Notes under the pieces: generated by a model
Seen by the model: the letters and a program-made list of their open reading frames with translations, nothing else
Told to the model about the DNA's origin: nothing
Database searches by the model: none
Assembly: GCA_019359045.1 (NCBI GenBank)
Contig: JAHHIA010000010.1
Coordinates: 186,001-250,000 of the forward strand
Origin: Scytolyngbya sp. HA4215-MV1
GTDB taxonomy: Bacteria; Cyanobacteriota; Cyanobacteriia; Leptolyngbyales; Leptolyngbyaceae
Direction of reading: 5' to 3'
DNA length: 64,000 nucleotides
In this document: positions 30,560 through 59,295 of the stretch, one piece after another
Layout of the letters: every line of letters begins with the position of its first letter
Position numbering within the stretch: position 1 is the first letter of the stretch
Made by a program: the position numbers and the translations under genes

Positions 30560-30572
30560 GGTTCGAGTTCCT

Positions 30573-30661
30573 GGTAGTGTTTCAAAGGTGTTGTTGGTAT
30601 TTTTGAAAGCTTTATCTAGCAAAGCTTTCAAAAATACCAACAACCTATCTAGAACATAACC
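30573..30661 (+). repeat. 89-bp dispersed hairpin repeat, copy 1
   Basis: Runs from GGTAGTGTTTCAA to AGAACATAACC. Its centre is a perfect 24-bp stem with a 7-nt loop: arms 30590-30613 and 30621-30644. The outer bases match copy 2 (56947-57035) in opposite orientation. It fills nearly the whole 109-bp gap between the two paralogous hydrolase genes. Any transcript crossing the gap would fold strongly, which could set relative expression of the two genes. Confidence 0.85.
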
Positions 30662-30668
30662 GAGTTCC

Positions 30669-32885
30669 TTAATTCGGTTTTGATGAATCGGTTTTGGGAG
30701 TCTGAGTAATACTCTTTAAGGTAGAGGTCCCTGCATCTTTGCCGAGTGTATCTAAGAGCGGTTCCTGTGCCAAAATGCCTAATCTCACTGCGTCTCGATC
30801 GCGCCCTAAAACATCCACCATATAACGTTCTGGAGAAGCAGCAACCTGAATACATTTTTGCTCACAAACCCAGGAGAAATATCGAATCGCGATTCGACGT
30901 TTTTCAATCAGTAAGTCGGACAGCTCAGAATCATTTGAATTACTAGTCTTGAGTTTTTCGATGGCTTGATTTAGGGCTGGAATTCGAGCCAAGCGATCCT
31001 TGAGTGGGTTAGGTAAGGGATTGGTAATCCCTAATTCTTCTGGCGTCTCTAAAACTAGGGAGTCAAGCAATCCCTTAAAGCCGACAAATGCCAAGCGATA
31101 AATTAATCGCTTACTGAGCCTGCCCCAAAAATACCCCCCATGGACATCTCGCCCTTTGGGAAAGGTATCGGGGCTGAATTGTGCATAGGCAAACAAAAGT
31201 TTCAAATAATCTGGCAATTTCAAGGGTGAGCGTTGCCGATCGCAAATCATCACATTGAAAACATCGGTTTGGTGCACCAGGTCATTGCTGTCTTTGAACT
31301 TGCCATAATCCGTTCTATCTCGATATTCGGTACAGTCAAAGTACGTAAATAAATCTGCGATCGACTCTGGATCTTTTTGATCCTTTTCTAGCGATTCTTG
31401 CTCCCCCTTGACCTCCGCTTGAGGATCTAAACTTTGGTTATTGTTTTTCTGAAGCACACTCACTTCTAGATAGCCTAGCAAGTGTTCAACCGGGATTTGA
31501 GGTAAGCGGCTTAAATTTACCACTCCATAAGATGATTGGCTTTCTTTGGGATTGACCGTTACATTACCCAAGCGATACCCTTGTGTGCGCGTTTTTGCCG
31601 GAAATGAGAAATAATTTGCTGCTGTAGAAGCCATTCTTAGCGCCAAATCTCCCTCATTACTAAAGAGATAGGCTTCTTCAAATCGTCGTAGGGACGATCG
31701 TAAAAAATTGGCGCGTCCTGAAACAATTGCCCTGACCGGAATATCTGGTGAAGCTAAGACTAACCGACCCAATGAAAAGACTCTACCCACTCTGGAAGAT
31801 GGGCTTTTTTCAGTACTATTCAGTGCCCCGATCGACTGCTGATCAAAAACATCAGAAAGAATGCGAATCACCTGAGTCGTGACTAGACCTCCCATACTAT
31901 GTCCAATAAAGCTCAACTTCACAGGTTTATGCCGCCAGTAGCTTACTGCTTTGTCATATTGCTGTTGACCAATCTGAGCGACTTCCTGAGCAATTTGAAC
32001 CAGCACTTCATCGCCTAAACTGACCGAACAAGCTTGCCGGATCGTACTGAGCAAAAGCACAAATTTAGGGTTTTCTGGATTAATTTCCACTTCTTTTCTA
32101 TCCAGTGCTTGCCGAATTTGAGCGATCGTTTCAGCTAAAACTGCTTCGTTAAATTCGATTTGATTTAACGCGCAATTTGTTTTAATGGGTGTAATGAAAT
32201 CTTCCTGATTTAATAAGTCTTCAATTCGGCGATCGATGAGACTTTGATCCAGCTGCCTGATCAGCTCCATCAGATCTGGTACCCCGTAGTTAATTGCGCG
32301 ATAAGAATCTCGAAAATAAAGAACGATCCTAAGAATAAATAGGGTAAAAAATAGGGTAAAGAAAAAGACTCCCACGATCGTTGGAATGAGCGATAACCAA
32401 GTCCATTGACTTGCCCAGAAAGTTAGTAATCCCGCCAAAACTAAACCTGAAATTGCCAAAGAAATACCACCACTCAGCAACCCATAGAGTGCCAAAGGTA
32501 AGGCTGCAAATGCATCCTTAAAACTGCCAGGAACATGTTCTGAGGGCCAACGATAGCCCAAAAAAACTGAGCTATTTTTACGATTCTGAATACATTTATC
32601 TTCATTAATATACGTACACAAAGATTCGTACCATTGTCTCACTCCGTCAATATTGTCTTGCCCCGCCCCTGTGTTGTAACCATGAATCGTAATGACCAAT
32701 CCCAATTCATCCGTTGAGAGTTGACTATTTTGATAAAGTTGTTCCACTACATCCTTAATCGTAGGAGGAAAAACATCCCTGACAACTGAATCATCTTCAA
32801 CATTGGCAGGTGCTGTACTTTTGGCGAAATATCCAGGAATCTCTAACGTTTGACCTGGAAATAGGTTTTCGATCAAAACATCCAT
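30669..32885 (-). CDS. Membrane-inserted alpha/beta hydrolase, upstream paralog
   Basis: 738 residues. It shares its architecture with the gene downstream: LVITIHGYNTGAG, FLGYRWPSEHVPG, two membrane helices at about residues 140-190, then the elbow SFIGHSMGGLVTT with the nucleophile serine at residue 330 in a canonical GxSxG. A long shared block follows, including RVFSLGRLVLASPDIPVRAI and FLRSSLRRFEEAYLFSNEGD. The C-terminal 200 residues differ more. These are a tandem gene duplication. The upstream spacer holds no other leftward gene, so it probably carries the operon promoter. Confidence 0.82.
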   Translation of the reverse strand: MDVLIENLFPGQTLEIPGYFAKSTAPANVEDDSVVRDVFPPTIKDVVEQLYQNSQLSTDELGLVITIHGYNTGAGQDNIDGVRQWYESLCTYINEDKCIQNRKNSSVFLGYRWPSEHVPGSFKDAFAALPLALYGLLSGGISLAISGLVLAGLLTFWASQWTWLSLIPTIVGVFFFTLFFTLFILRIVLYFRDSYRAINYGVPDLMELIRQLDQSLIDRRIEDLLNQEDFITPIKTNCALNQIEFNEAVLAETIAQIRQALDRKEVEINPENPKFVLLLSTIRQACSVSLGDEVLVQIAQEVAQIGQQQYDKAVSYWRHKPVKLSFIGHSMGGLVTTQVIRILSDVFDQQSIGALNSTEKSPSSRVGRVFSLGRLVLASPDIPVRAIVSGRANFLRSSLRRFEEAYLFSNEGDLALRMASTAANYFSFPAKTRTQGYRLGNVTVNPKESQSSYGVVNLSRLPQIPVEHLLGYLEVSVLQKNNNQSLDPQAEVKGEQESLEKDQKDPESIADLFTYFDCTEYRDRTDYGKFKDSNDLVHQTDVFNVMICDRQRSPLKLPDYLKLLFAYAQFSPDTFPKGRDVHGGYFWGRLSKRLIYRLAFVGFKGLLDSLVLETPEELGITNPLPNPLKDRLARIPALNQAIEKLKTSNSNDSELSDLLIEKRRIAIRYFSWVCEQKCIQVAASPERYMVDVLGRDRDAVRLGILAQEPLLDTLGKDAGTSTLKSITQTPKTDSSKPN

Positions 32886-46934: not shown

Positions 46935-47067
46935 GTTAGAGTTCTCCAATCGAATTAATAACGAGGCTTCAGCTTGATAGTGTGAAAGAGTATTAAGCTG
47001 AAGCTTTTTATTCAGCAGTTCCTACAATTGAGCGTTTGGACATATGTTTTGATGTCCATATCTACTA

Positions 47068-47105
47068 CAATTCAGGCTTTCTAATAATTTAGAAAGCCTG
47101 AATTG
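47068..47105. terminator. Strong hairpin downstream of nrdJ
   Basis: A perfect 17-bp stem, CAATTCAGGCTTTCTAA at 47068-47084 with TTAGAAAGCCTGAATTG at 47089-47105, and a 4-nt loop. It lies 15 bp after the nrdJ stop and would end its leftward transcript. There is no long T run, so it may also be a stability or processing element. Confidence 0.6.
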
Positions 47106-47119
47106 TCTGTCTTGGTTAT

Positions 47120-51504: not shown

Positions 51505-51697
51505 CTTGCAGAGGCAGGTAAACGAAGCCCTCTTCCACCTGCGATACGCCATTGACCTGGATGCAAAGTGCCAGAAGATGGCAAAAACCGACACCGATTT
51601 CGACCCCATCCGCGACCACCCGCGCTTTCGCGCCCTGGTGAAGACTAAAAACAGCCCCCTAGCATTCATGCTAGGGGGCTGTTTTCGATCACCCTGA
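51389..51697 (+). pseudogene. TPR gene remnant overlapping the end of the pilin-like gene
   Basis: The frame beginning near 51389 reads ALGRKEEAISSYDQALHYEP, then DKHEAWYNKACCYSLQRQVN and EALFHLRYAIDLDAKCQKMA, two clear TPR units and a typical tail DTDFDPIRDHPRFRALVK. It has only a TTG as possible start and lies out of frame with the preceding gene. Most of the N-terminal part of a TPR protein is missing. It was probably joined to the pilin-like gene by deletion. Confidence 0.7.
51648..51685. terminator. Strong bidirectional intrinsic terminator
   Basis: AAAACAGCCCCCTAGC at 51648-51663 pairs perfectly with GCTAGGGGGCTGTTTT at 51670-51685 across a 6-nt loop. It has As on the left and Ts on the right, so it can end both the rightward pilin/TPR transcript and the leftward glsF transcript. 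Confidence 0.9.
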
Positions 51698-51717: not shown

Positions 51718-56388
<4,671 letters not shown>

Positions 56389-57381
56389 TGTTATAACTTA
56401 CCGAGGTTAGGGATGAGCGACAGTTAAAAGGAGGTTGAGAAAGGGTTAACTCAATTGACCAGCGTGGTTCGATCGACATCGAAAAACAGTCAATTCTGGC
56501 AATCGGACAGGCAAGGACATACTGACAAATCGAGGTGGAAAATTGTCATCAGGTCAAGCCTTCGACGGAAAAAAGCTTTCTACTAAAAATAAAAAGCTAG
56601 ATAAAAAAAGCTCTATCAGAAAAGCCTGAGATTACTCTGTAACAACGACAAATACAGGGAAATCCAACTTTGGATCATGGGGACTGAGAGACGAGGTATT
56701 CAGCGATCGCAAATTGCAACGAACTTGAACTAGGATCGCAACCCCCATCCTCGCAACCAGGCTCATTTTTCAAATGGGATCAATGAATTTGCTCAGGATA
56801 CGATCGCGCCAGAAATATTGAGTCAGATATCGCGAAGCATGCTGATTGGGGGCTAGCTGTCTATGGCTTCAGTTCAATCCTGACTCCTCTGCTGACTGAC
56901 CGACATTCTGGAGTAAATCACAATAGAGCCGCGCTTATCGTGATTCGGTTATGTTCTAGACATCTTGTTGGTACTTGGGCAGGCTTTGCTCAGCCAAGCT
57001 TGCCCAAGTACCAACAACACTGTTGAAACACTACCCGTGATTCCATCCTGAGAATTTTGTTCAGGTGGGTCGTCCGGCACTGGATATCAGGAATCAGAAT
57101 TGTATAAAAAATACATAGTTCTAGCAATCCCTAAGTCGGCAAACAAATTTTTCCAGCGAATCCGATTGCTGCCTTTATCTTGTCCGAAACGCTACCCATG
57201 CTGTTCAGATTTGTCAGCCGACGAGATAACACGATCGCGGCTTGCTTTCAGGACAAATTCAGCCTCTTTCCTCCATTATTACGAATACGATACGAATATT
57301 GCGAAATGATTACGAAGGGTAAGGCTGAACCGCCGTTGAAGTCAGTATTCCTTGATAGTTTTGTAAAGATTACCCGACAGA
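56389..57381. other. Intergenic region upstream of glsF, about 990 bp
   Basis: A long spacer with the 89-bp repeat copy 2 at 56947-57035 and no gene I can support. Short ORFs at 57100-57482 lie partly inside the next gene and look like artefacts. I checked the 300 bases upstream of glsF for a GTA-N8-TAC NtcA site and found none exact. Confidence 0.5.
56947..57035 (-). repeat. 89-bp dispersed hairpin repeat, copy 2
   Basis: The same length and ends as copy 1 at 30573-30661, but in opposite orientation (GGTTATGTTCTAGA at the left, GAAACACTACC at the right). The stem arms TTGTTGGTACTTGGGC and GCCCAAGTACCAACAA pair with a wider interior. The stem sequence differs from copy 1 at about ten positions, mostly in paired changes, so folding has been kept. 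Confidence 0.85.
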
Positions 57382-59295
57382 ATGATGGCAAAACTTGGTT
57401 TGAATATTTCTTGGCAAAATTTAGATCGCCTTTGGTCTGGTTGTCCTCAAGCTCCCTATACAGGTCTCAGTTACCTGGGTAAGATTGGGCTGATGCTTGT
57501 CTTGCTAGGGGGAGCGATCGATCTCAGATTGGACCCTGCGATCGCCTCGGAACCCCCCGATCTGATCACGGTTCCCCGTCGTCAAATCAGCCAGCAGTCT
57601 GTATCTCCCACTCCTACCCCCGCGCCATCGACCCAAACTTTCATTCGTCAAGGCACTCAGGTTTCGGTGAATGGACGCACACTCCCAGTAGCCTGGGCAC
57701 AGTGGCAAGTGCTTCCCCATAGCGAAGTCCGCACAGGAATTAGCGACGCTGGATTGATGCGATTGTTTGGGTTTCGGTTGCTGAGTACGCTGAATGCTGC
57801 GGTTCAGCCAATTGAATGGTTTGCTCCTCCTACCAACTTGCCTACCTTATTAACTGGGCAGTCTCGTTATTTAGACATCAGCATCCTGGCACAGGACATG
57901 GGTTGGCAATATCAGTCAAATGGTTCAGTGTTGCAGCTGACTTCTCCGCCCAGCCGAGTAATGAATGTGCGACAGGGTAAACAACCCTGGGGCGATCGCG
58001 TGGTGGTAGATCTCGATCGTCCTACTCCCTGGCAAGCCGAACAACAACAAGATTTTTCCGTTACCCTGGACGCGGCGATCGATGCGACTCTTCTTACCCA
58101 TTTCCAAGCTGGTCCAGGTAACTTATTAACCTCCTTGAAGCTGGAAACCTCAGCCAACAAAACGATTCTCCGCTTGGGTATTCCAGGGAACATCCGTCCT
58201 CGCCTCTCGACACTTACCAATCCCCATCGTTTGGTGATTGATGTTCGCGACGATTCCATGGTGACTCAAGAGATTCTTTGGGCACCCGGATTGTTCTGGC
58301 GACAACAAATTCTTACTGTGGGGGCGGCTCAGTTTCCAGTGGTTTGGTTTGCTGTAAACCCGCGCCAATCTGGACTCCGTATCAAACCGATTTTGCCTAA
58401 TGCGGTCAACATTCAGGGAACGGCTCCCTTGAGCCAAACAGCGCAGCAAGCACAAGTGGCAGCTGCCATTAATGGTGGATTTTTTAATCGCAAAAATCAA
58501 TTGCCATTGGGGATCGTCCGGCGAGATGGTCGCTGGGTTTCGGGCCCCATTTTGAATCGGGGAGCGATCGCCTGGAATGAAAATGGTGACTTTAGATTCG
58601 ATCGCTTCAATCTGCAAGAAACCGTCATTACCAGCGCAGGGCAGCGATTTCCTTTAACCTATCTCAACAGCGCCTTTGTTAAAGCAGGAATTGCTCGCTA
58701 CACCCCGGATTGGGGCACCTCTTACATGACCCTATCGGATAATGAAATTCTGATCGGGGTGCAAAATAATCGGGTGGTGAGCCAGCAAACGGCGGCAGCG
58801 GTTGGTTTAAGTAGCCCCATCCCCACAAATGGCTATCTACTGGTGTTTCGATCAAACAAAACTGCAGCAGACTCTTTTCCTAAAGACACCTTGCTACAAA
58901 TTGAAAGTGCAACCACCCCAGCAGACTTTAGCCGCTATCCCAATATTGTCGGAGGCGGTCCTCTGCTGCTTCGTAATCGTCAAATGGTGGTTGATGCTGC
59001 TGCCGAAGGATTTAGCCCTGCGTTTATTCGTGAAACCGCTCCCCGGAGTGCGATCGGGCGGACTGCCGATGGCACGATTCTCATTGTGGCAGTGCATAAA
59101 AAATTAGGTGGAGCCGAGGTTTCTCTCAATGAAATTGCCCAAATTATGCAACAACTCGGTGCGATCGATGCCCTGAATTTGGATGGGGGCAGCTCCACCA
59201 CGCTTTATCTGGGCGGTCAATTGCTCGATCGTCCCCCCCAAACCGCAGCGCGAGTTCACAATGGCATTGGTGTTTTTGTCCAACCCAGTCCGTAA
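57382..59295 (+). CDS. Exported phosphodiester glycosidase family protein
   Basis: 637 residues from the ATG at 57382. A hydrophobic segment (LGKIGLMLVLLGGAIDLRL) near residue 30 looks like a signal or anchor. Residues about 95-190 resemble a copper amine oxidase N-terminal-like (stalk) domain: GTQVSVNGRTLPVAWAQWQV. Residues about 310-630 match the NAGPA/DUF2233 fold, AAINGGFFNRKNQLPLGIVR, APRSAIGRTADGTILIVAVH and DALNLDGGSSTTLYLGGQLL. In animals it uncovers mannose-6-phosphate by removing GlcNAc; bacterial members probably act on envelope or extracellular glycans. Its neighbour at 59577 is a sugar-phosphate cupin. Confidence 0.88.
   Translation: MMAKLGLNISWQNLDRLWSGCPQAPYTGLSYLGKIGLMLVLLGGAIDLRLDPAIASEPPDLITVPRRQISQQSVSPTPTPAPSTQTFIRQGTQVSVNGRTLPVAWAQWQVLPHSEVRTGISDAGLMRLFGFRLLSTLNAAVQPIEWFAPPTNLPTLLTGQSRYLDISILAQDMGWQYQSNGSVLQLTSPPSRVMNVRQGKQPWGDRVVVDLDRPTPWQAEQQQDFSVTLDAAIDATLLTHFQAGPGNLLTSLKLETSANKTILRLGIPGNIRPRLSTLTNPHRLVIDVRDDSMVTQEILWAPGLFWRQQILTVGAAQFPVVWFAVNPRQSGLRIKPILPNAVNIQGTAPLSQTAQQAQVAAAINGGFFNRKNQLPLGIVRRDGRWVSGPILNRGAIAWNENGDFRFDRFNLQETVITSAGQRFPLTYLNSAFVKAGIARYTPDWGTSYMTLSDNEILIGVQNNRVVSQQTAAAVGLSSPIPTNGYLLVFRSNKTAADSFPKDTLLQIESATTPADFSRYPNIVGGGPLLLRNRQMVVDAAAEGFSPAFIRETAPRSAIGRTADGTILIVAVHKKLGGAEVSLNEIAQIMQQLGAIDALNLDGGSSTTLYLGGQLLDRPPQTAARVHNGIGVFVQPSP

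Follow-up and report, generated by a model that had tools for sequence, protein, structure and literature searches.

The target duplications made by IS1 elements are mostly 8–9 bp long. The ends of these elements are given as GGnnnTG, a motif that most members of the IS6/IS26 family have as well (PMC6807381). When the two arms of a palindrome covary, this is commonly regarded as the strongest sign of a functional RNA. Copying from one arm to the other is, however, a published route to compensatory changes (PMC8794818); template switching is described as homogenizing the arms of inverted repeats and inverting the spacer, and in bacterial data cited by the same source it favored transversions (PMC8604942). 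Here we describe an 89-bp unit that occurs twice in the window (a stretch of 64,000 nucleotides from Scytolyngbya sp. HA4215-MV1, whose genome is called G000 below). Judged from its sequence, the unit is best read as a gene-less, non-autonomous MITE of the IS1 family, whose paired stem changes probably arise mainly by DNA arm copying, that is, by template switching. The family itself is new, while its kind, with IS1-type ends, is already known.

The earlier note on this DNA had described two 89-bp copies with near-identical ends and had read them as a repeated mobile element with a strong palindrome, and both statements were borne out (Table 1). Copy 2, an exact unit of 89 bases, lies between a glutamate-synthase gene (51718–56388, − strand) and a gene encoding a phosphodiester glycosidase domain (57382–59295, + strand). 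Copy 1 lies between two open reading frames on one strand, both with weak matches to alpha/beta-hydrolases, and overlaps the mechanical start of one of them. The left end, allowing up to 3 mismatches, occurs 2 times in the window as compared to a mean of 0.12 in shuffles. The two copies differ at 19 of 89 positions, and 8 of these 19 form four paired changes in the stem, at unit positions 28/62, 31/59, 32/58, and 34/56. Paired changes had been noted before, but three unpaired stem positions of copy 2 (18/72 C.C, 36/54 G.T, and 41/49 T.C) had been overlooked, and one of the stem sequences then quoted, CTTGGGCAAGC, represents the right arm in complement, the actual left arm being CTTGGGCAGGC. 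In copy 1 the unpaired stem positions (42/48, 43/47, and 44/46) all lie beside the loop. Elsewhere in the window, a perfect hairpin containing runs of A and of T (aaaacagccccctagcattcatgctagggggctgtttt, 51648–51685) sits immediately downstream of the glutamate-synthase gene and is terminator-like, and a further long inverted repeat (caattcaggctttctaa...ttagaaagcctgaattg, 47067–47106) bears no relation to the MITE.

Table 1. Positions, within the window, of the two MITE copies and their parts.
Feature	Window position	Strand
Copy 2 of the 89-bp MITE (feature under study)	56947–57035	+
Target-site duplication CGTGATTC, left flank of copy 2	56939–56946	
Target-site duplication CGTGATTC, right flank of copy 2	57036–57043	
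Left terminal repeat GGTTATGTTCTAGA of copy 2, IS1-like	56947–56960	+
Right terminal repeat GGTAGTGTTTCAAC of copy 2, read inward (consensus GGTAGTGTTTCAAA)	57022–57035	−
Palindrome of copy 2: 27-nt arms, central base 56991	56964–57018	
Copy 1 of the MITE (89 bp)	30573–30661	−
Target-site duplication GAGTTCCT, one flank of copy 1	30565–30572	
Target-site duplication GAGTTCCT, opposite flank of copy 1	30662–30669	

The window's genome (6.62 Mb in 33 contigs) holds at least 50 full-length copies; 40 of the 72 candidates were scored in an initial BLAST search. The window contains GCGATCGC 47 times, which points to a cyanobacterium. When 3 mismatches are allowed, the end pattern GGTWRTGTTYYARANNNGTTGTTGG matches G000 97 times against 2 for the reversed control, and a scan of genome contigs for the end pattern gave 0 matches in a set outside which the window's own genome may lie. 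The counts given below for full-length G000 copies rest on an alignment of 50 of them. A covariance model built from these copies matched more diverged places, 17 of which were read (L155–L171) and kept out of the counts because such a model favors paired stems. The diverged copies L082 and L087, together with L076, L083, L085, L088, L089, and seven 43-bp forms, stand outside the counts of mispairs, transitions and transversions, and central bases; the transition-to-transversion (non-stem) spectrum and the terminal-repeat counts do not include the left ends of seven copies.

What ties this unit to IS1? First, it carries GGTTATGTTCTAGA at one side and GGTAGTGTTTCAAA, read inward, at the other, and these terminal inverted repeats fit GGnnnTG (GGTTATG and GGTAGTG). 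Second, target duplications of 8–9 bp with at most 1 mismatch flank 25 of the 50 copies, where about 0.1 would be expected from the flanks of different copies; exact duplications are 8 bp long in 11 copies and 9 bp in 6. Third, the ends of about 24 nt are nearly identical to those of five IS1 loci from the taxonomic family to which G000 belongs (L095, GGTAATGTCCTAGACGTGTTGTT; L097, GGTCGTGTTCTAGACTTGTTGTT; L101, GGTAATGTCCTAGACATGTTGTTG; L104, GGTAGTGTTTCAGACGTGTTGTT; L204, GGTAGTGTTTCAGATATGTTGTT), the last of which lies in a genome, G009, that also holds the MITE. Exact 8- or 9-bp duplications accompany paired ends at the IS1 loci L090, L097, L098, and L102 of related genomes, and of the 39 genomes of this family, 36, G000 among them, have a match to PF03400, the IS1 transposase. 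An IS1-type end of about 24 nt lies on each side of a palindromic core of about 41 bp, and the unit was probably spread by an IS1 transposase acting in trans.

A transposase with matching ends, which the earlier note had proposed to look for, was thus found in IS1 elements of related genomes and at none of the five PF03400 loci of G000, where the best matches to the 23-nt MITE ends (14–16 of 23) are near chance for such a scan. One of these loci, L042, was considered as the partner and dropped, its end match of 16/23 being indistinguishable from chance. Two others, L043 and L044, are truncated: contigs C12 and C19 of G000 both stop within an IS1-type element that is identical in the two and has the end GGTAGTGCTATACA, which suggests that a repeated IS1 lies where the assembly breaks. 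The partner in G000 may have been lost, may be hidden, or may have been active earlier. Since partners in trans need not persist, its absence lowers the case for IS1 membership without excluding it.

The earlier note had also offered a fold in single-stranded DNA during transposition. IS200/IS605 elements are not known to duplicate their target, and it is hardly credible that the unit belongs to them, or to the REP/RAYT type, and moves as single-stranded DNA: terminal inverted repeats lie outside the hairpin, 8–9-bp target duplications flank them, and the ends are like those of IS1 in related genomes. Membership, looked for as a lack of duplication and a hairpin at the end, failed on the duplications and the external inverted repeats, although the core is a hairpin and, in relatives, resembles the GTAG-tagged palindromes described in PMC3733652.

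The covariation of the palindrome is genuine. Assessed over copies, as the earlier note had suggested, it amounts to 33 doubly changed but still paired cells as compared to 2.2 ± 1.4 in column shuffles (26 pairs, 50 sequences), while sliding the partner columns by 1–3 leaves 2 to 8 such cells. Over 27 pairs, the tally is 35 paired doubles and 1 mispaired double; pairable positions of the terminal repeats, used as an internal control, gave 4 paired versus 57 unpaired changes. The claim that paired changes signify selection for a fold is only half upheld: the covariation is there, but paired changes alone do not show selection. Unpaired changes in the arms, which had been named as what would speak against that claim, are plentiful, with 50 one-sided cells beside the 35 paired doubles in the same 27 pairs (21 G.T, 21 A.C, and 8 other). 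Paired and one-sided changes coexist.

Could the hairpin instead act as RNA in host transcripts, as a terminator, mRNA stabilizer, or processing site, the paired changes being RNA compensation? The covariation and a strong predicted RNA fold would be in keeping with such a role, to which we give a slim chance, as one-sided changes show no G.U bias and 25 of the 50 copies lack a fully paired 26-bp stem. Within the window no Rfam match reached the gathering score, and the one 1-kb region scanned showed no terminator-like site at the element. Because a single RNA strand tolerates G.U but not A.C, and the two are equally frequent here, arm copying in DNA is preferred over RNA.

We infer that template switching is the cause of both the paired and the one-sided changes. 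At replication, the nascent strand would fold on the palindrome and copy one arm from the other (quasipalindrome correction), which could transfer a base change or an indel between the arms and could also invert the central base; covariation produced in this manner needs no RNA function. The mutation spectrum favors such arm copying, since the paired doubles are rich in transversions and share the transition-to-transversion ratio of non-stem sites (15:20 and 42:48, respectively), and the one-sided changes, at 36:7, do not (doubles vs. one-sided, p = 2.6e-4, or p = 0.021 when five copies with clustered or shifted changes are set aside). Further support comes from indels matched in both arms (L069 and L086; those of L068 and L073 have no match in the other arm), from the central base, and from the rewriting of an arm in one copy of a related genome. 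The central base of the 50 copies is C in 24, G in 23, T in 2, and A in 1, and C↔G makes up 3 of the 90 non-stem changes. The rewritten copy, L133 of G005, agrees fully with the consensus of 12 sister copies over 26 nt at one end and 24 nt at the other, but has a right arm changed to match the left, a length of 86 bp instead of 90, and an inverted center, the last of which recurs in L174 and L177 of the same genome. The 12 copies of length 90 in G005 hold 0 doubly changed and 13 one-sided core pairs, from which it follows that arm copying is rare in that genome.

Some of the doubles may be inherited, the 35 representing 26 combinations of column and type, and the four doubles of L069 are a register shift resulting from its own paired indels. 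The doubles do not track copy age. The base at the center was likewise compared with relatedness, which even a column known to mark a subtype failed to follow. Change per column is 0.024 in the inner stem versus 0.07–0.12 at the ends, and one-sided transversions fall below the non-stem prediction (p = 6e-5), which leaves two readings: a more frequent correction of fold-disturbing mispairs, or some degree of selection on pairing.

Selection could act on the DNA fold at the level of the transposon, if copies whose center extrudes a hairpin or cruciform moved or persisted better and paired changes consequently survived in the lineages that transpose. This is, in a wider sense, one of the two options of the earlier note, and it stands as a possibility, unlikely as a main cause but with a real chance of being right. 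The depletion of one-sided transversions agrees with it, as do the equality of G.T and A.C, expected from a two-strand fold, and the retention in related genera of the frame and the length of about 90 bp around a different palindrome. However, paired changes are not more common in copies with target duplications (14 in 25, vs. 21 in the 25 without), numbers that link paired changes neither to transposition nor to the time after it. Full-length IS1 ends exist in relatives without such a core, and on visual inspection a 90-bp stretch of G181 (L059), bounded by IS1-type ends, shows no long palindrome. Finally, hairpin-less forms of 43 bp exist, 3 of 7 with an 8–9-bp duplication containing one mismatch, though they may be later deletions.

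The seven 43-bp forms, all in G000 (L074, L075, and L077–L081), correspond, with 0–6 mismatches, to the 89-mer minus the 46 bp between its two TTTGAAA repeats. They are read as deletions because the IS1-like inner right end is kept in the 89-bp form only.

BLAST with the consensus gave no full-length match in 57 other relatives and none in 385 other genomes of the phylum sample (2 candidates per genome scored); besides a few short partial matches, it picked up the core in genus g41. With the covariance model, 9 of the 39 family genomes gave matches, G000 counted. Elements of about 90 bp that have ends of this kind around another core are found in six other genomes of five genera (G003 and G430 of one genus, G005, G009, G011, and G013), and this core is often GTAGRGACGTT...AACGTCYCTAC or similar; the model matches in G004, in G031, and at two places of G009 have no clear ends. 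Target duplications flank 14 of 33 related elements, where 0.06 would be expected, with 12 of 14 in G005, 2 of 9 in G003, and 0 of 10 in the other four genomes; this count leaves out L139, L140, L147, and L186, which lack clear IS1-type ends, and retains as a miss L150, whose boundary is badly placed. The palindrome pattern has 19 matches in G005, of which 11 fall in listed elements; in G013 it has 9, and the single listed element there is not among them. As the pattern allows 7 central bases, it cannot match the 6-base center of the G003 core. G000 itself has one element, L083, with the same frame, a GTAG-type core, and a 9-bp duplication.

A bolder idea is that the IS1-type MITEs of this cyanobacterial family represent a transposable frame of near-fixed length fitted with different palindromes, of which the shape rather than the sequence is needed for mobility or persistence, and which are kept perfect by template switching and selection together. 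We regard this as distinctly doubtful; were it true, the TTTTTGAAAG..TTGC core, common to the MITE and a differently ended palindromic element of a distant genus, would be an exchanged module.

That other repeat, whose outer sequence resembles TTACAGCGCTTTGCGCTC on one of its sides, is found in three genomes of one distant genus (G056, G326, and G388; loci L047, L049, L050, L056, L057, L064, L065, L188, L192, L193, L196, L197, L199, and L202). Its core in common with the MITE is TTTTTGAAAG..TTGC...GCAA..CTTTCAAAAA, a pattern found in 4 of 386 phylum genomes, G000 counted; it too has paired stem changes, and its loops read TTT, AAA, TTC, or GAA in one orientation. The L059 stretch of G181, with the ends GGTAATGTTCTAGACC / GGTAGTGTCCTGAATC and no evident duplication, lies in another family of the class.

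How does the MITE compare with described systems? The IS1-family elements of relatives (L090, L095, L097, L098, L101, L104, and L204) have the same ends and, in some, 8–9-bp duplications, but encode a PF03400 transposase, whereas the MITE has no gene and a palindromic core. The ISL3-type MITE of Microcystis, as described in PMC11448079, is likewise cyanobacterial and non-autonomous, with imperfect terminal repeats, 8-nt duplications, and a stem-loop, but is 187 nt long, with ISL3-type ends (GGCTCTTCG) and another sequence. The core GTAGAGACGTT...AACGTCTCTAC of related genera has the form of the GTAG-tagged REPs reported from prokaryotes including cyanobacteria (PMC3733652); unlike these, the MITE has IS1-type ends and target duplications, and its main core in G000 is not GTAG-tagged, L083 being the exception. 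The titles and abstracts turned up by searches of the open-licence literature contained nothing on the present IS1-type MITE or on arm homogenization in a bacterial MITE, and the present work adds a palindrome-cored IS1-type MITE found in several genera of one family. It provides a natural case in many copies in which covariation is strong and yet the spectrum of mispairs, the paired indels, and the center inversions fit DNA arm copying, and its copies could be used to test how methods based on covariation infer RNA structure. Arm homogenization, spacer inversion, and one-step compensatory changes by template switching at inverted repeats are described in yeast genes and RNA genes in the sources cited (PMC8604942; PMC8794818); we infer the same process in a many-copy bacterial transposon.
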